A stretch of DNA of 47,203 nt from NCBI RefSeq assembly GCF_002251635.1, contig NZ_NMOJ01000012.1, positions 43,529 to 90,731 on the forward strand, read 5' to 3'. Position numbers and translations under genes: made by a program. Shown here piece by piece: positions 4,269-38,367 of this stretch. Each line of letters begins with the position of its first letter. The stretch's first letter is position 1. A model generated the notes under the pieces. That model was not told where the DNA came from. It saw nothing but the letters and a program-made list of their open reading frames with translations, and made no database searches. This stretch comes from Pseudomonas mandelii (GTDB taxonomy: Bacteria > Pseudomonadota > Gammaproteobacteria > Pseudomonadales > Pseudomonadaceae).

Positions 4269-4282
4269 TTGATCGACATCAA
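4269..4282 (-). promoter_or_regulatory. ANR/FNR box upstream of nrdD
   Basis: TTGATcgacATCAA is a perfect match to the ANR/FNR consensus TTGAT-N4-ATCAA. It lies 87 bp before the nrdD ATG, a position suited to activation of nrdD under low oxygen. Confidence 0.8.
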
Positions 4283-18764: not shown

Positions 18765-19439
18765 ATGCTGACCCACCCTTCCATCGTTTTAACGTTGCGC
18801 CGTCACCATCTGTTCAGCCAACTACCGGAGAAAATCTTCGAGGAAGTCTGCGGCCTGGCGATGCTCAAGCGCCTGAGTTGTCACAGCACACTCATGCACC
18901 AAGGGGATCCGGCCAAGCGTTTCTTCCTGTTGGTCAGCGGCCAGATCAAGTTGTATCGGCTGACCGGCGAAGGCCAGGAGAATCTGGTGGAGATCATCCA
19001 GCCGGGCCAGACCTTTGCCGAAGCCTTACTGTTCAGCCAGGCCCGTCTCTACCCGGTCAGCGCCACGGCGCTGAAAGACAGCGTACTGGTGAGTATCGAG
19101 GGCAACCACTACCGCAATGCCCTGGAAGATCAGCCGAAAGTCTGCCTGGCGATCCTGGCGAGCATGAGCGTGCACCTGCACCTGCGTCTGCGCGACATCG
19201 ACACCTTGACCATGGCCAGCGCGAGCCGCCGGGTGATCAATTTCCTGTTGCAGGAGCGCAACCCGGTCAGCGGATTGATTGTGTTGCAGGTGTCCAAACG
19301 CCTGGTGGCCTCGAAGCTGGGCATTCAGCCGGAAACCTTTTCGCGGATCTTGCACCGCCTGGTGGACAGCGGCCTGATCGCGATGGAACGCCGCAATATC
19401 AGCATCCTCGCCGAAGAGGATCTCGCGGCCTTCCAATAG
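18765..19439 (+). CDS. DNR-type Crp/Fnr regulator next to narXL (DnrE-like)
   Basis: 224 aa: a cyclic-nucleotide-like sensor domain (residues about 15-125), a long dimer helix and a winged helix (about 150-220). The recognition helix IQPETFSRILHRL keeps the Glu-x-x-Ser-Arg contacts for TTGAT half sites. The four N-terminal cysteines of oxygen-sensing FNR/ANR are absent, which places it with the DNR (NO-responsive) group. A dnr-type gene (dnrE) lies beside narXL in P. stutzeri, and this looks like its counterpart. The ribosome binding site is GGAGG six bases before ATG. NarL heptamers upstream suggest nitrate control. Confidence 0.85.
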   Translation: MLTHPSIVLTLRRHHLFSQLPEKIFEEVCGLAMLKRLSCHSTLMHQGDPAKRFFLLVSGQIKLYRLTGEGQENLVEIIQPGQTFAEALLFSQARLYPVSATALKDSVLVSIEGNHYRNALEDQPKVCLAILASMSVHLHLRLRDIDTLTMASASRRVINFLLQERNPVSGLIVLQVSKRLVASKLGIQPETFSRILHRLVDSGLIAMERRNISILAEEDLAAFQ

Positions 19440-25192: not shown

Positions 25193-25280
25193 GACGGTGA
25201 TCTCCGAAAAGGTTCTGCCCAGCGTGCGAGACTTCGCGCAACAGCACCTTGATCACCATCAACACTGAGCATGCCCAGCC

Positions 25281-26810
25281 TTACTTCAGGCGTAACCGCC
25301 GCGCCAATTTGTGCAGGTTGCTGGGATCGATTTCCAGGATCCGCGCGGCGCTGGCCCAGTTATCCCCGGACAGGCTCAAGGCCTGGAGAATTTTCTTGCG
25401 CTGGTAATCGTCGACCGCTTCCCCCAGGGGCTGGAACGGCGCGTCAGCCGTTTCGTCCAGAGGACTTTCGACGACCACGCCCTGCCCGCCCATGGCACTG
25501 TCGAGGTCCAGAATCTCGGGTTCCAGCGTCATGATCAGGGTACGACTCGTGCCGCGGCTGAGCGTCTTCAACGCGGCTCGGCTGATCACATGTTCCAGCT
25601 CGCGCACGTTGCCCGGCCAGTTGTAAGTCAGCAGCGCGCGCTCGGCGGCCGGCGACAGACGCAAACCGCGCAAGCCAAGCCGCGCCCGATTCAGCTCAAG
25701 GAAGTGCCCGGCCAGCATCAACACATCGTTACCCCGCTCGCGCAACGGCGGAATCGGCACCGGATAGACCGAGAGCCGGTGATACAGATCCGCCCGAAAC
25801 AAGCCATCGCGGATGCTGTCCGGCAGGTGCCGGTTAGTCGCGGCGATGATGCGCACATCGACGTGCAACGGCTTGTCGGCGCCGAGGCGCTGGATCTCGC
25901 CGTTCTGCAGGGTGCGCAGCAGTTTCGCCTGCACAGCCAACGGCAATTCACCGACTTCATCTAGAAACAGCGTGCCGCCGTTGGCCGCATCGAAACGCCC
26001 GGCACGGTCACTGGTGGCGCCGGAAAACGCGCCTTTGACATGGCCGAACAATTCACTTTCCGCCAGAGACTCCGGCAAAGCAGCGCAGTTGACCTGCACC
26101 AGCGGCTTATGACTGCGACGCGACAGACGATGCAAGCGCCGGGCGAACAGCTCTTTGCCGACGCCGGTCTCGCCCAGCAGCAACACCGGCAGCTCGGAAT
26201 CGGCCAGTACATCCAGTTCATTGAGCAACTGGTGCAGCACTTCACTTTGCCCGAGGATTTCGCCTTCGTCCGCCGGTCTGCGTACGTCTTGAATATCGCT
26301 GCGGGACAAGCGCAGGCTGCGGTTTTCCTGTTCCAGTCGGGTGACTCGCACGGCGGCTTCGATCTGCAAGGTGCAGCGCTTGAGTTCTTCCCGCGCACGG
26401 CTGTCGAAGGTCCCGGCATGCAGCGCATCGAGGGTGATCGCCCCCCAGATCCGACCTTCCACATACAGACTCACGCCCATGCAGTCATGCACTGGCATCG
26501 GTTCGCCGGCGTGATTGTCGAGCAAGCCATCATAGGGATCCGGCAGCCGACTGTCGGGCTCGAACCAGGTGGGTTCGCGCGACGCCATGATCGCCGCCAG
26601 CCGCGGATGCTGAGCGATGACAAACCGGCGGCCCAACGCTTCATGCACCAGCCCCACCGTCGCGACCGGCCTGAGGCTGTCGTCATCCAGACGCAGCAAT
26701 CCCACGGCGCCACTGTTGAAGTACTCGCGCAGGGTCTGGACCAAACGTTGCAACCGCACAGCATTCGGCAACTCGACGATCAGGTCGGCCGCCAGGCTTT
26801 CACGCAGCAT
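25281..26810 (-). CDS. norR: Nitric oxide-responsive sigma54 activator NorR (FhpR-type)
   Basis: 509 aa. The N-terminal GAF domain (about 20-165) senses NO at a mononuclear iron; residues that match the E. coli ligands Arg75, Asp96, Asp99, Cys113 and Asp131 are Arg70, Asp91, Asp94, Cys110 and Asp128. The AAA+ domain has Walker A GETGVGKE (about 213) and Walker B LFLDEVGE (about 281). The sigma54-contact loop reads GAFSGA (about 260) instead of GAFTGA. A Fis-type helix-turn-helix ends the protein. It is divergent from ytfE, and a NorR box lies directly before its ATG, suggesting autoregulation. Confidence 0.93.
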   Translation of the reverse strand: MLRESLAADLIVELPNAVRLQRLVQTLREYFNSGAVGLLRLDDDSLRPVATVGLVHEALGRRFVIAQHPRLAAIMASREPTWFEPDSRLPDPYDGLLDNHAGEPMPVHDCMGVSLYVEGRIWGAITLDALHAGTFDSRAREELKRCTLQIEAAVRVTRLEQENRSLRLSRSDIQDVRRPADEGEILGQSEVLHQLLNELDVLADSELPVLLLGETGVGKELFARRLHRLSRRSHKPLVQVNCAALPESLAESELFGHVKGAFSGATSDRAGRFDAANGGTLFLDEVGELPLAVQAKLLRTLQNGEIQRLGADKPLHVDVRIIAATNRHLPDSIRDGLFRADLYHRLSVYPVPIPPLRERGNDVLMLAGHFLELNRARLGLRGLRLSPAAERALLTYNWPGNVRELEHVISRAALKTLSRGTSRTLIMTLEPEILDLDSAMGGQGVVVESPLDETADAPFQPLGEAVDDYQRKKILQALSLSGDNWASAARILEIDPSNLHKLARRLRLK

Positions 26811-26811
26811 G

Positions 26812-26866
26812 GTAGTTATTACCCTCTATGGTTGGATTCACCCTAAAGCGTCCGGGTGTCTATCAC
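26812..26866 (+). promoter_or_regulatory. Three NorR boxes between norR and ytfE
   Basis: Three GT-N7-AC sites: GTAGTTATTAC (26812-26822), GTTGGATTCAC (26831-26841) and GTGTCTATCAC (26856-26866). Three such sites are also what NorR uses at E. coli norVW. Confidence 0.75.
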
Positions 26867-26907: not shown

Positions 26908-26923
26908 TGGCATGCCGGATGCA
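26908..26923 (+). promoter_or_regulatory. Sigma54 promoter of ytfE
   Basis: TGGCATGccggaTGCA has the invariant GG-N10-GC spacing of the -24/-12 element. It starts 42 bp after the last NorR box, and the predicted start of transcription is about 30 bases before the ytfE ATG. Confidence 0.75.
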
Positions 26924-26965: not shown

Positions 26966-27640
26966 ATGAGCCTGACTCTATTGGAACAAAGCCTCGGCCA
27001 ACTGGCGTGCGACATTCCCGGCGCCACACGGATTTTCCACACCTTTAAACTGGACTTCTGTTGTGGCGGGCATAAAAGCCTGCTTGAAGCGGCCGCTGGC
27101 AAAGGCCTCGATCCGGCCCTGATTGCCGATGCGCTGCACCGGCTGCAAGACACCGGCGAAACCCAGCACGACTGGCGCAACGAACCCTCGGAGCTGTTGA
27201 TCGCCCATCTTCTGGCGCGCTACCACGCCCGCCATCGCGAACAACTGCCGGAACTGATTCGTCTGGCCCGCCGCGTCGAGCAGGTCCATGGTGCCCGCAG
27301 CAGTTGCCCCAACGGCCTGGCCGATCTCTTGACCGACATGCAACAAGAACTTGAAGGCCACATGCTCAAGGAAGAACAAGTGCTCTTCCCGATGCTGCAA
27401 CAAGGCATCGGCCCTCAGGCCGCACCGCCGATCCAGGTGCTGCGCTTTGAACATGATCAACATGGCGAAGCATTGGAAAGGCTGCTTGCGCTGACCAACA
27501 ACATCACCCCGCCGGCCAATGCCTGTAATACCTGGCGTGCCCTGTATCGCGGGCTGCTGGAGTTCCGTGATGACTTGATGCAACACATCCATCTGGAAAA
27601 CAACGTGTTGTTCGTCAACGCACTTAAACCTCGCCATTGA
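26966..27640 (+). CDS. ytfE: Iron-sulfur cluster repair di-iron protein YtfE (RIC, DnrN)
   Basis: 224 aa. An N-terminal ScdA-type segment (about residues 5-60) contains CCGGHKSL with the Cys-Cys pair. A hemerythrin-like domain (about 75-220) carries spaced His and Glu residues (HLLARYHARH, EGHMLKEEQVLFP, RFEHDQHGEALE, DLMQHIHLENNVLF) for the di-iron site. It repairs clusters damaged by NO. The ribosome binding site AAGGA is seven bases before the ATG. Expression is predicted to be NorR/sigma54 dependent. Confidence 0.93.
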   Translation: MSLTLLEQSLGQLACDIPGATRIFHTFKLDFCCGGHKSLLEAAAGKGLDPALIADALHRLQDTGETQHDWRNEPSELLIAHLLARYHARHREQLPELIRLARRVEQVHGARSSCPNGLADLLTDMQQELEGHMLKEEQVLFPMLQQGIGPQAAPPIQVLRFEHDQHGEALERLLALTNNITPPANACNTWRALYRGLLEFRDDLMQHIHLENNVLFVNALKPRH

Positions 27641-28242: not shown

Positions 28243-29433
28243 TTAGCCCGGATGGCCGTCCACCCGGGACTGCAACAGCATCGGCCCATAGCGCCAGGCG
28301 TATAGCGCAAACGCCAGCACCCAACACAGACCGGCCAGCCACAACGCCGGCAAGGGGAAAAACAGGATCAACACGACCCGGCTCAGACAGGCCAGGTTGA
28401 GCAGAATGAACGCCAGGGTCATGCCCGACGGCGGCTCCAGCGCGCGGCCGGTATGCCCCAGGCTGACCCGTGCAATCATCGCCAGCACCAGGCCGCCCAT
28501 GGCGCCAATGGTCAGGCAATGCACCGCCAGACTCGGATTGATCGGCACACCGAAATGCCACAGCGCCATCCCGAGACAGGCCACCGCCAGCCAGGCATAA
28601 GCCAGGTACAACGACCACAACAACGGCACATGCCAGAGGGCGCGATCATGCCAGCGCACCAGGCGCACCAGATGCCCAGCGGCCAACACCGCGAACAACA
28701 GGCCCACCCAGAAATCGGGGGCAAGCGCAGGTCCCGCGGCATAGAGCAACGCTACCAGCGGTGAGCCAATCAGCAGCAGCCAATCCAGCCACGGCCAAGG
28801 GGTTACGCCCTCGACCTTGCCGAGGCCGCGCTGGATGAAGAACGGAATGACGCGCCCACCGATCAAACCCATCATTGCCGCCACCAGCCACATACCCGTC
28901 AACACGCCTTGACGCTGCCAGCCTTCATGACCTTCGACCAGACCATACAGGGACAACCCATCGGCCGCTGCTAACAGCAGCAACACCACCGCAATGGGGT
29001 AGTTACGTTTCTGCCGCACCTTCCACAAGGTGAATCCCATGAGCGCAGCCACCGCCAGCGGGAACGCCAGTTCCAGCACCGCAAGCACCGGCAACGGTGC
29101 ATTGACCAGCCAGGCCACGCGCGCCAACAACCACAGCAGCGCCAGCATGGCCAGTGGTTGCCCGCTGATGCCGGGGCGACCGGTCCAGGTCTGCACCGCC
29201 GTCAGCAGAAAGCCGGCGATGATCGCCAAGCCGAATCCGAACAGCAATTCGTGTCGATGCCAGTTCAGCCAGCCACCCGCCGGCTGCCAGCCGGAAAGCT
29301 CACCACTGAAGGCGAACAGCCAGAGCGGAATGACCAACACCGCCAGCAGGCAGCCGGCGAGGAAAAACGGCCGAAAGGCCAAACGCAACAGCGGCGCGAT
29401 AGCCATCGCTTTACGGCGGTCAAGCACTTGCAT
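28243..29433 (-). CDS. nnrS: NnrS family heme-copper membrane protein
   Basis: 396 aa with about 12 membrane helices. NnrS proteins contain heme and copper and relieve NO stress in denitrifiers and in Vibrio cholerae (established); the molecular activity is unsettled. Family features are the N-terminal LAFRPFFLAGCLLAVL and histidines such as NWHRHELLFGFG (near residue 57) and HCLTIGAMGGLVLAMIARVSLGHTGR. A strong sigma54 element at 29547-29562 faces this gene and lies next to NorR boxes shared with the dnr side. Confidence 0.92.
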   Translation of the reverse strand: MQVLDRRKAMAIAPLLRLAFRPFFLAGCLLAVLVIPLWLFAFSGELSGWQPAGGWLNWHRHELLFGFGLAIIAGFLLTAVQTWTGRPGISGQPLAMLALLWLLARVAWLVNAPLPVLAVLELAFPLAVAALMGFTLWKVRQKRNYPIAVVLLLLAAADGLSLYGLVEGHEGWQRQGVLTGMWLVAAMMGLIGGRVIPFFIQRGLGKVEGVTPWPWLDWLLLIGSPLVALLYAAGPALAPDFWVGLLFAVLAAGHLVRLVRWHDRALWHVPLLWSLYLAYAWLAVACLGMALWHFGVPINPSLAVHCLTIGAMGGLVLAMIARVSLGHTGRALEPPSGMTLAFILLNLACLSRVVLILFFPLPALWLAGLCWVLAFALYAWRYGPMLLQSRVDGHPG

Positions 29434-29529
29434 AAAGCTACTCCTTTACCTTGCTGCTGACCTGACGCCAACCCACACGCGTCGAGGCAAGTCCGGGGGC
29501 AATCATCGGGTATTGACGATTAATTGCCT

Positions 29530-29543
29530 TTGTCGCAGATCAA
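29530..29543 (-). promoter_or_regulatory. Degenerate ANR/DNR-like box before nnrS
   Basis: TTGTCgcagATCAA matches one half site fully. It would overlap the predicted sigma54 transcription start of nnrS, so its role is doubtful. Confidence 0.35.
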
Positions 29544-29546
29544 GTG

Positions 29547-29562
29547 TGCAAGGGCCGTGCCC
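29547..29562 (-). promoter_or_regulatory. Sigma54 promoter facing nnrS
   Basis: On the minus strand GGGCACGgcccTTGCA differs from the -24/-12 consensus TGGCACG-N4-TTGCA only in its first base. It lies about 113 bp before the nnrS ATG, with NorR boxes starting 59 bp further upstream. Confidence 0.7.
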
Positions 29563-29620
29563 TGATGTTCATTCGCCCGCTGTGGTGAGAGAACCCGCGC
29601 CCCTGCGGGACCGGGCCAGG

Positions 29621-29675
29621 GTAGAAATGACCATCAAAGGGTTATTTGAACCCTAAACCCCGTGGTCGTTTTTAC
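29621..29675. promoter_or_regulatory. Three NorR boxes between nnrS and the dnr transcript
   Basis: GTAGAAATGAC (29621-29631), GTTATTTGAAC (29641-29651) and GTCGTTTTTAC (29665-29675) are all GT-N7-AC. The outer boxes are 44 bp apart, as before ytfE, and both middle boxes are followed directly by CCTAAA. This 351-bp intergenic stretch (29434-29784) otherwise holds only the two sigma54 elements and the weak box at 29530. Confidence 0.75.
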
Positions 29676-29716
29676 CCTCCTATCTGGCAACCCCACTAAA
29701 CAAAGGACTCCAGGGA

Positions 29717-29732
29717 TGGCCCGCGTCTTGCT
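29717..29732 (+). promoter_or_regulatory. Sigma54 promoter upstream of the 29-codon ORF and dnr
   Basis: TGGCCCGcgtcTTGCT has the GG-N10-GC core and a full TTGCT -12 half. It begins 42 bp after the third NorR box, exactly as at ytfE. The predicted start is about 40 bases before the ATG at 29785. Confidence 0.75.
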
Positions 29733-29784
29733 CAATGGTTCAAAATTAAGGAAAACCTGATCCTTCTCGATCCCAGGAGTCGTC

Positions 29785-29874
29785 ATGAAAAAAGTCATCC
29801 AGCCATTGGCCTGGTTTGTGGTGCTGACCTCGGTGCTGGCGTTGGCCAGCGGTGTCTCGCTGGGCCTCGTTTGA
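29785..29874 (+). CDS. 29-aa hydrophobic membrane peptide upstream of dnr
   Basis: ATG-AAA-AAA opens a 29-codon ORF with AGGAG five bases upstream and a TGA stop at 29872-29874. The peptide has a Lys-Lys start and then one membrane helix (PLAWFVVLTSVLALASGVSL), with no cysteine. It is 41 bp ahead of dnr and behind the NorR/sigma54 promoter. It might be a single-pass membrane peptide like the small subunits of terminal oxidases, or a leader peptide for dnr. I do not recognise the family. Confidence 0.6.
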   Translation: MKKVIQPLAWFVVLTSVLALASGVSLGLV

Positions 29875-29915
29875 CTTGATCGCCATCCCCTCTTCAAACT
29901 TCAGGATGAATTCTT

Positions 29916-30599
29916 ATGGTGCTTCATCGCGTCCATCACCAGATTCTGCGCAGTCATCACTTGTTCGAGCCGTTGAACGAAGAACAGCTGGATGAGTTGA
30001 TGAGTACCAGCCATTTGCTGAGCATCGACAAAGGCGAACCGTTGTTCCGTCAGGGCGAGCCGGCAGACTCGTTCTATTTCGTGATTGCCGGCGCGGTGAA
30101 AATCTATCGCCTGACGCCCGACGGGCAGGAGAAAGTGTTTGAGGTCATTGGTGACCGGCAAACCTTCGCCGAAGCGATGATGCTGATGGACACCCCGAAC
30201 TATGTGGCCTCGGCCGAAGCGATCTGCCCCACTCAGCTCTATCGGTTATCCAACAGCACCTATATGCGCCTGCTGCAAAGTAACAGCCGACTGACCTTTG
30301 CGCTGCTCGGCAAGCTGTGCGTTCGCTTGCATCAACGGGTCAACGAAATCGAAACCCTGTCACTGAAAAACGCCACCCACCGGGTCGTGCGTTATCTGCT
30401 GACGCAACTGGTGCGCCAGCAAACCGTTGGCAGCCAATTCGAATTGCCAATGGCCAAGCAACTGATTGCCGGGCACCTGTCGATCCAGCCGGAAACCTTT
30501 TCGCGGATTATCCGTCGCCTGATCGATGAAAACATCATCACCCAGGACGGCCGCCAGATCGCCATTCTCGATCGTCTGCGCCTGGAGCAGTTTGAGTGA
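29916..30599 (+). CDS. dnr: Denitrification regulator DNR
   Basis: Crp/Fnr-family activator of 227 aa, the same length as P. aeruginosa DNR, which senses NO through heme and turns on nir, nor and nos genes. Sensor domain about residues 18-130, dimer helix, then winged helix with IQPETFSRIIRRL. The iron-sulfur cysteines of FNR are lacking. Targets in the window probably include norC (34661) and nirS/nirQ (36558). Its own upstream region carries a predicted NorR/sigma54 promoter and no good ANR box, unlike the ANR control reported for P. aeruginosa dnr. Confidence 0.94.
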   Translation: MVLHRVHHQILRSHHLFEPLNEEQLDELMSTSHLLSIDKGEPLFRQGEPADSFYFVIAGAVKIYRLTPDGQEKVFEVIGDRQTFAEAMMLMDTPNYVASAEAICPTQLYRLSNSTYMRLLQSNSRLTFALLGKLCVRLHQRVNEIETLSLKNATHRVVRYLLTQLVRQQTVGSQFELPMAKQLIAGHLSIQPETFSRIIRRLIDENIITQDGRQIAILDRLRLEQFE

Positions 30600-30604
30600 G
30601 TGCC

Positions 30605-30796
30605 ATGCCCGTCTGCTTGTATTGCCAACGCGCCAACCCCGCACAAGAAACCGAGTGCCGCCAGTGCGGCATGCCCTTGCCAGTATTGGCCGCACACGCG
30701 GCGCAACGTCGGCTGCGCCGATTCACGTGGTTCTGCATTGGCCTGACGATCTTCTGCGTGACGATGTTTTTCTGGCTGCCACGCGGCATCAGTTGA
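30605..30796 (+). CDS. dnrP: DnrP protein, zinc-ribbon membrane peptide
   Basis: 63 aa from the ATG at 30605; a GTG at 30596 overlapping the dnr stop could add three residues. The N-terminus has a double CxxC zinc ribbon (CLYC ... CRQC), and residues about 42-58 form one membrane helix (TWFCIGLTIFCVTMFFW). It follows dnr at five bases and resembles the small protein called DnrP in pseudomonads. Its role is unknown. It ends 15 bp from the convergent norD stop. Confidence 0.75.
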   Translation: MPVCLYCQRANPAQETECRQCGMPLPVLAAHAAQRRLRRFTWFCIGLTIFCVTMFFWLPRGIS

Positions 30797-34162: not shown

Positions 34163-34603
34163 TTAGCCCTCCTTGTTTGGCGGCCAGCCATTGGTGTTGA
34201 TGTTCGAGCTCCATTTGAGGAACTCGGCGATGTCATCCACCTCCTGGTCACTCAACTTGAACTGCGGCATCGCGCGCCGGCCGGGTACACCCAGTGGCTG
34301 CATTTTCATCCAGGCATGCAGAAAGGGTTTGAAGCCCGCTTCCCCACCGCGCCGCTGGAACACGTTGCCCAGCTCAGGCGCAAAGTAGGCGCCCTCGCCC
34401 AGCAGCGTGTGGCAGCCGATGCAATTGTTTTGCTCCCAGACCAACTTTCCGCGCACCACGGATTCGGTGAGCTGCGCCTCATTGCTGCGGGCCGGAAAGG
34501 TCTGTTCCGTGTGATAGGTCAAGGCCAGGAATATCAGGAAGAAGAAGATGCTTCCCCCGAAATAGATATTCCTGGCCATGCCTTTGGTGAAGGTCTCTGA
34601 CAT
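34163..34603 (-). CDS. norC: Nitric oxide reductase cytochrome c subunit NorC
   Basis: 146 aa, identical in length to P. aeruginosa NorC. The ATG at 34603 has GAGGAAG upstream. One N-terminal membrane anchor (about residues 12-31) and a periplasmic heme c site CIGCH near residue 61 with a later Met ligand (RRAMPQF). It passes electrons to NorB. Confidence 0.96.
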   Translation of the reverse strand: MSETFTKGMARNIYFGGSIFFFLIFLALTYHTEQTFPARSNEAQLTESVVRGKLVWEQNNCIGCHTLLGEGAYFAPELGNVFQRRGGEAGFKPFLHAWMKMQPLGVPGRRAMPQFKLSDQEVDDIAEFLKWSSNINTNGWPPNKEG

Positions 34604-34660
34604 GGTCGCTTCCTCTTTGCTTGGCCCGTCCATGATAGGAAGCGAAGGGTTAGAACCTGC

Positions 34661-34674
34661 TTGATGGCGATCAA
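34661..34674 (-). promoter_or_regulatory. DNR/ANR box of norCB
   Basis: TTGATggcgATCAA, a perfect box 58 bp before the norC ATG. DNR is the expected regulator, as at P. aeruginosa norC. Confidence 0.85.
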
Positions 34675-34721
34675 GAAAGTCAGATGGTTTTGGTCGGGTA
34701 TTACTGACAACGCAGATCGAA

Positions 34722-34811
34722 TGTGGGAGCGAGCCTGCTCGCGAAGGCAGAGTGTCAGTCAACTTGGATGTTGAATGTGACGGCTCCTTCGCGAGCAGGC
34801 TCGCTCCCACG
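34722..34811. repeat. REPIN between nirP and norC
   Basis: TGTGGGAGCGAGCCTGCTCG at 34722 and its inverse complement ending at 34811; it separates nirQOP from the norC promoter. Confidence 0.9.
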
Positions 34812-36557: not shown

Positions 36558-36571
36558 TTGATCGTCGTCAA
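36558..36571. promoter_or_regulatory. ANR/DNR box between nirQ and nirS
   Basis: TTGATcgtcGTCAA lies 82 bp before nirQ and 105 bp before nirS in a 199-bp divergent region. It can serve either or both promoters. Confidence 0.85.

Positions 36572-36597: not shown

Positions 36598-38367
<1,770 letters not shown>

Follow-up and report, generated by a model that had tools for sequence, protein, structure and literature searches.

Predicted control of the denitrification regulator gene dnr by NorR and sigma54 in Pseudomonas mandelii and related pseudomonads

The gene for the nitric oxide (NO)-responsive denitrification regulator DNR of Pseudomonas mandelii very probably lies behind a NorR-activated sigma54 promoter at 29621-29732 of the window, the whole stretch of 47,203 nucleotides analyzed here. 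A transcript from this promoter, whose start we take to be near 29743 from the usual distance to a -24/-12 element, would carry a 29-codon open reading frame (ORF) and then dnr, so that NO, through NorR, would raise DNR. NO binding by the GAF domain is known for the NorR family. In the proposed cascade NO would bind the GAF domain of this NorR, NorR at three boxes would activate sigma54-RNA polymerase at the -24/-12 element, the level of DNR would rise, and DNR, itself requiring NO, would switch on norCB, nirS, and probably nnrS. That NorR and sigma54 drive dnr had been proposed in an earlier sequence-only reading, and it is the interpretation that the genome comparisons best support: 70 of 87 dnr loci in the genus appear to have such a promoter dedicated to dnr, its presence tracks that of NorR with exceptions, and it abuts dnr where the small ORF is absent.

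Architecture of the dnr Promoter

The three GT-N7-AC boxes and the near-consensus -24/-12 element of the sequence-only reading were read back exactly. They and the genes at which they point are listed here.

29621..29631, plus strand: NorR box 1, GTAGAAATGAC, read directly; in register in 69 of 87 loci
29641..29651, plus strand: NorR box 2, GTTATTTGAAC, read directly; in register in 69 of 87 loci
29665..29675, plus strand: NorR box 3, GTCGTTTTTAC, read directly; in register in 69 of 87 loci
29717..29732, plus strand: sigma54 -24/-12 element, TGGCCCGcgtcTTGCT, read directly; GG-N10-GC, located 3' of the boxes
29785..29874, plus strand: 29-codon ORF (MKKVIQPLAWFVVLTSVLALASGVSLGLV), which opens the predicted transcript; AGGAG upstream; ORF of 29 amino acids in 66 of 87 loci
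29916..30599, plus strand: dnr, Crp/Fnr-family NO-responsive denitrification regulator; matches DNR protein 3dkw and Pfam cNMP_binding and HTH_Crp_2

The array at 29621-29732 points at the 29-codon ORF and, beyond it, dnr. The top match of the dnr product among solved structures is the DNR protein 3dkw (E 1.4e-93, residues 3-227), a full-length similarity accompanied by the Crp/Fnr domains, and the identity of the gene is settled by this match; none of the NCBIfam models reached its cut-off against the product. The 29-codon ORF is conserved between the promoter and dnr with its third codon positions the most variable, and eight residues (P7, W10, F11, L14, A21, S22, L26, and L28) are invariant in all 66 of the 29-residue copies, a peptide without a family match in NCBIfam or Pfam. 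It reads as a single-helix membrane peptide. At four loci (L075, L084, L093, L115) the start of the small ORF opens a protein of 169-170 residues instead, and at three others (L073, L097, L104) the ORF is of intermediate length. In the window, the 41-base gap separating dnr from the small ORF yielded no terminator-like site, and 29434-29920 no site resembling a sigma70 promoter; the single terminator-like match (29551-29563) lies upstream of the NorR boxes and is at chance level.

The box geometry (steps of 18-22 and 22-27, a gap of 35-49, and GG-N10-GC) occurs at exactly two sites on both strands of the 47-kb window, those of dnr and ytfE, and nowhere in 300 first-order Markov resamples of it. 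A profile derived from 50 promoters in other genomes, with the two of the window excluded, scores these sites at 77.1 and 76.7 bits, and its remaining matches in the window (23.5 and 17.9 bits) are their reverse strands. In the 6.67-Mb genome, ytfE and dnr, with their weak reverse strands, were the only matches among the 150 of 966 first-look candidates that were scored, at 72.6 and 69.9 bits that are partly high by construction, the profile for this search having included the window's own sequences. Given that share of candidates, a third site, weak or differently spaced, may lie elsewhere in the genome, which also encodes rpoN outside the window.

Comparison with the ytfE Promoter and Other NorR Promoters

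The second site of the window stands between norR and the divergent ytfE.

25281..26810, minus strand: norR, sigma54 activator containing GAF and AAA+ domains; 686.9 bits with the NCBIfam NorR equivalog model (cut-off 476); GAF and Sigma54_activat
26812-26822, 26831-26841, and 26856-26866, plus strand: NorR boxes of ytfE, GTAGTTATTAC, GTTGGATTCAC, and GTGTCTATCAC, read directly
26908-26923, plus strand: sigma54 element of ytfE, TGGCATGccggATGCA, read directly
26966..27640, plus strand: ytfE (iron-sulphur repair gene), oriented divergently to norR; 331.6 bits with the NCBIfam YtfE model (cut-off 254)

The numerical agreement that the sequence-only reading had seen between the two promoters is accurate, since in both box 3 starts 44 bases after the start of box 1, the middle box is followed by CCTAAA, and 41 bases separate box 3 from the -24 element. 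The description of the dnr promoter as a near copy of that of ytfE does not hold: 53 of 115 aligned bases are identical; without the motif letters the figure is 37 of 99, and on this measure the dnr promoter is no closer to its own ytfE promoter than to 21 other ytfE promoters (mean 38%). The shared spacing is not a likeness peculiar to the two promoters, the geometry being general to NorR promoters, as 61 ytfE promoters illustrate. Duplication of the ytfE promoter was accordingly rejected as the cause of the equal spacing, given this generality and the 37% identity outside motif letters. In a spacing survey limited to steps of 18-21 and 23-26 and gaps of 39-46, the span from box 1 to box 3 was 44 in 53 of 61 ytfE and 43 of 69 dnr promoters (42-45 in the others), and the gap from box 3 to the -24 element was 41-42 in 60 of 61 and 67 of 69, respectively. 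The 61 ytfE promoters are those that reached 11 of 12 letters among 82 upstream regions scanned. Of the 21 below that level, thirteen belong to genus loci in which the YtfE match is short and the anchor was probably wrong (L066, L076, L081, L083, L086, L087, L092, L094, L096, L100, L105, L112, L113), and the remaining eight come from two other genera and have no close NorR adjoining; L096 does possess a ytfE promoter, unscored in this survey. By eye, an AT-rich stretch of the ytfE promoter, the possible location of an IHF site, is absent from the dnr promoter.

Known NorR/sigma54 promoters, those of norVW in E. coli, norAB in Ralstonia, and hmp and dnrN in P. stutzeri, likewise combine three GT-N7-AC boxes with a -24/-12 element further downstream, and the NorR sites of P. 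stutzeri hmp, at -192, -173, and -148, show the same steps of 19 and 25 bases (passages of PMC1274295). With three tandem boxes, a -24/-12 element, the spacing of other NorR promoters, and both norR and rpoN encoded in the genome, the site upstream of dnr has the features predicted of a NorR promoter.

Conservation of the Promoter

Conservation in related genomes, which the sequence-only reading had put forward as a check, was borne out in two scans, whose genome sets overlap and are not independent. The genus survey covered 398 genomes, of which 92 had a DNR-like match and 88 an orthologue at 73% identity or above; the 87 loci compared are the window and 86 that were fetched, with G240 left out as it is cut inside dnr. 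A scan at near-fixed spacing found 11-12 of the 12 half-site letters together with the -24/-12 element at 69 loci, and the other 18 score 6-8 of 12, making the distribution bimodal. Two of these 18 (L099, L107) have all boxes and the element, split by an inverted-repeat insertion, a tolerance that fits an enhancer-type activator. The insertion is a REP-like inverted repeat from about 400 to 190 bases before dnr, between the boxes and the -24/-12 element, and the boxes are conserved in both species. The arrangement of ytfE and dnr together behind a NorR promoter occurs in L096 (of the 69), L124 (of the 18), and also G240 (L222). In all, the 87 loci comprise 70 with a promoter dedicated to dnr, two of the operon form, and 15 that are promoter-less. 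Three genomes without the small ORF (L151, L160, L167) have the promoter 38-57 bases from dnr.

The query of the second scan, run on 84,980 species genomes, contained no dnr gene and consisted of the three boxes together with TGGCCC and TTGCT at the observed gaps. The scan returned 58 stretches, 57 from Pseudomonas and one from Simplicispira psychrophila, against a uniform-chance expectation estimated at about 0.03 matches (23 fixed letters, four gap combinations); TGGCCC being the form derived from dnr promoters, the scan is tuned to these and does not count other NorR promoters. In 55 of the 58 the element is followed by dnr at 38-240 bases. Two further stretches (L125, L157) end before dnr would be reached, but the small ORF stands 56 bases downstream in both; L157 and L181 are contigs of one strain. 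The Simplicispira stretch adjoins norR. Carriers of the promoter include common soil and plant species such as P. brassicacearum, P. corrugata, P. mandelii, and P. donghuensis.

Association with NorR

Intact NorR at 81% identity or above was found for 68 of the 70 loci with a dedicated promoter, within the locus in 58 (open, with at least 491 aligned residues) and elsewhere in the genome in 10; of the other two, L088 is truncated where its contig stops, and in L086 (G052) a frameshift interrupts norR ahead of the DNA-binding end. A close full-length NorR is missing from all 15 promoter-less loci: nine have only a paralogue at about 52-54%, two a NorR without GAF, and four a homologue at 61-67%, the scoring of these last as not NorR being a choice. 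Five further genus genomes comprise G613 and G621, with both NorR and the promoter; G632 and G561, with neither, G561 having a 66% homologue; and G567 (L218), in which the promoter is intact though norR lacks residues 176-454. In L096 the promoter accompanies a NorR without GAF. The norR of L219, L220, and L221 (G004, G101, G304) also lacks GAF and starts just before the AAA+ domain, and the ytfE beside it gave no match over its first 60-68 residues.

The most telling case for a link between promoter and NorR is that of two sisters, L093 and L075. In G069 (L093), a genome without a close NorR, box 2 is intact but boxes 1 and 3 are damaged, as are the two parts of the -24/-12 element, and in G187 (L075) the promoter is intact. 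Across the 122-row dnr tree there are seven changes of the promoter label and eight of NorR; five independent pairs differ in NorR on starred branches, of which a mean of 2.8 go the same way and none the opposite (median sign-test p 0.25, with L086 counted as having NorR). The promoter is thus conserved in relatives and lost with NorR, with G052 and G567 as exceptions, and the association is clear in the counts, but few independent events lie behind them.

A sample of 30 genomes from eight other genera contained an arrangement in which ytfE and dnr may share a promoter. In nine of the ten members of group g15 a NorR promoter stands at ytfE, and dnr lies beyond ytfE in the same orientation; norR is beside ytfE in eight of the nine, and four of the nine (L183, L184, L185, L191) show an FNR-like box 72-94 bases ahead of dnr. 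In the tenth (L190), which lacks a close NorR, a perfect FNR box is located 94 bases ahead of dnr. The operon type is represented by G427. In G400, G416, and G460, with a NorR homologue at 77-78%, no such promoter was found within 1300 bases of dnr, and the other sixteen genomes had neither such a promoter nor a close NorR (G548 has a 66% homologue). From this distribution we infer that control by NorR of a ytfE operon including dnr may be old, and that dnr would have gained its own NorR promoter once nnrS and a second gene had come between ytfE and dnr.

ANR and Other Candidate Inputs to dnr

A second candidate regulatory sequence lies in the gap between nnrS and dnr.

28243..29433, minus strand: nnrS, divergent neighbor; Pfam NnrS 364.8 bits
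29530..29543, no strand assigned: FNR/ANR/DNR-type box TTGTCgcagATCAA (8 of 10), fits nnrS

On the nnrS side of this box a -10 sequence, GATGAT at 29507-29502 on the minus strand, is in register, pointing to control of nnrS by ANR or DNR. On the dnr side the in-register hexamer is TGTTCA, not TAnnnT; the window thus lacks, towards dnr, the -10 hexamer 29.5 bases from the box centre that marks class II ANR/FNR promoters, and the box is about 380 bases from dnr. Exact copies of the box, TTGTC-N4-ATCAA, occur in the gap at 10 of the 15 promoter-less loci. All 10, and also L096, have TAnnnT in register towards dnr, whose start is 69-70 or 188-198 bases from the box. Exact boxes are also present at 56 loci with a dedicated promoter, eight of which have TAnnnT towards dnr, by a short criterion that was spotted in the data before counting, and these eight form one sister clade on the dnr tree; the hexamer is absent in the window and the other 47. 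By these features, the species appear to fall into NorR-only, dual, and ANR-only groups.

It could be argued that dnr is activated mainly by ANR, or by DNR itself, at 29530-29543, in line with the ANR control of dnr in P. aeruginosa (passages of PMC8139620), and that the NorR site is accessory; the conservation of the box and the in-register hexamers of the promoter-less loci and L096 would accord with this. Yet the hexamer is missing from the window and from 47 of the 55 other dedicated loci with the box, which in the window is remote from dnr and fits nnrS through its -10 sequence, and the loci with both inputs are confined to a single clade. ANR as the main activator of dnr in the window's lineage was therefore judged unlikely, there being no in-register -10 towards dnr. 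A different doubt concerns the target, as the promoter might serve the 29-residue membrane peptide alone, with dnr merely downstream and set by another promoter. The small ORF is indeed the first after the promoter and stays there even when grown to 169-170 residues (L075, L084, L115), but in the three genomes that lack it (two of them also appearing as L113 and L119) the promoter abuts dnr, in L124 and G240 (L222) the NorR promoter, ytfE, the small ORF, and dnr follow one another on the same strand, and in the window neither a terminator-like site in the 41-base gap nor a sigma70-like promoter was found, all of which makes it highly improbable that dnr is a bystander.

The remaining doubts concern the activator and the array itself. 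The window's genome encodes a paralogue of the same activator type at about 51% (G000:C96), presumably FhpR, and such a protein could bind similar boxes; the survival of the dnr promoter in G567 despite a broken norR would also be explained if such a paralogue, rather than NorR, acted there. Against this, nine promoter-less genus genomes have lost the promoter while having only a paralogue of about 52-54%, and norR adjoins ytfE, the only other such site found among the 150 of 966 genome candidates scored, a co-occurrence that leaves the paralogue with only a slim chance of being the activator. As for coincidence, the GT-N7-AC box alone is very degenerate and the gap AT-rich, but with no array in 300 resamples, and with 57 of the 58 exact stretches in 84,980 species being dnr promoters by gene or small ORF, a chance array is refuted by conservation and its probability is close to nil. 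Activation by NorR and sigma54 is thus the reading favored for dnr.

Expression Data and Previous Literature

Published expression data agree with NorR control in direction only, coming from different species, doses, and media. In P. donghuensis P482 exposed to tomato exudate, a stress that is not pure NO, dnr rose by 3.23 log2, along with ytfE (+6.36), hmp (+6.13), norC (+4.44), and nnrS (+4.99), while norR changed by -1.67 and nir was not induced; with maize exudate the change in dnr was +0.31 log2 (passages of PMC10256816). The cells were taken in early stationary phase, and the growth passage of that paper describes shaken plates. In HYS (L160), a different strain of P. donghuensis, the promoter and dnr are 57 bases apart. 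In biofilms of P. aeruginosa PAO1, an NO donor lowered dnr 1.64 fold (-1.64) as the denitrification operons and fhp went up (passages of PMC13024080), which indicates that the level of dnr need not limit DNR action.

The main-text passages of PMC1274295 name detoxification, repair, and nor genes and nnrS as NorR targets, dnr not being among them. No statement that NorR controls dnr was found in the literature searched, consisting mostly of sources outside subscription journals, and the parts seen of PMC13086519 and PMC3570484 make no mention of NorR acting on dnr. The parts of the circuit are known; the link between NorR and dnr, its spread, and the swap with ANR appear to be new within this literature. 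The sequence-only reading had also suggested that the wiring departs from that of P. aeruginosa, and passages on ANR control of dnr (PMC8139620), on its response to NO (PMC13024080), and on its rise in P. donghuensis (PMC10256816) support this.

Regulatory Context and Implications

Candidate targets of DNR and a small ORF directly after dnr lie downstream in the window.

30605..30796, plus strand: 63-residue zinc-ribbon-like ORF directly after dnr, which we presume to be DnrP-like; weak L40e match, below cut-off
34163-34810, minus strand: likely norC ORF; cytochrome c domain, gene name by context
34661..34674, no strand assigned: perfect FNR/DNR box TTGATggcgATCAA (10 of 10), upstream of the likely norC start; likely DNR target
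36558..36571, no strand assigned: FNR/DNR box TTGATcgtcGTCAA (9 of 10), upstream of nirS; likely DNR target
36676-38367: nirS; Cytochrom_D1

DNR governs if and when nitrite and NO reductases are produced in a pseudomonad, and hence how much NO and N2O escapes. If dnr is under NorR, NO would build its own second sensor in a positive feed-forward loop, dnr could rise without ANR, and the effect of NO on dnr would be opposite to that in the P. aeruginosa model. The NorR promoters of PMC1274295 (in the passages seen) serve detoxification, repair, nor, and nnrS genes, whereas the predicted target here is itself an NO-responsive regulator. The ANR-dnr cascade of P. aeruginosa (passages of PMC8139620) ends in the same regulator gene but differs in activator, sigma factor, and signal, and while dnr there falls 1.64 fold with an NO donor, the NorR input of the window should rise with NO; FhpR and fhp of P. 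aeruginosa likewise pair a NorR-type activator with an NO-response gene, but a different one (passages of PMC13024080 for both). Several regulators are also stacked in the FNR/Dnr cascade of Dinoroseobacter shibae (PMC5398030), where they are of the Crp/Fnr type, whereas in the window a sigma54 activator would stand above a Crp/Fnr one.

A broader model has, in our estimate, about an even chance of being right. In this model dnr would have two exchangeable inputs, NorR/sigma54 and ANR/sigma70, swapped through the dual-promoter stage seen in eight species, and would answer NO in opposite ways, up under the one and down under the other; in the window's genome, NorR promoters of this type would serve ytfE and dnr alone, norCB and nirS being reached only through DNR; and the micropeptide, made ahead of DNR, would be a conserved member of the circuit. 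The dual-promoter sister clade offers a natural series for the study of regulatory-network rewiring. Two more perfect TTGAT-N4-ATCAA boxes occur in the window, at 4269-4282 and 25249-25262, and a second DNR-like Crp/Fnr regulator, 37% identical to DNR, is encoded at 18765-19439 and adjoins a narXL-like pair.
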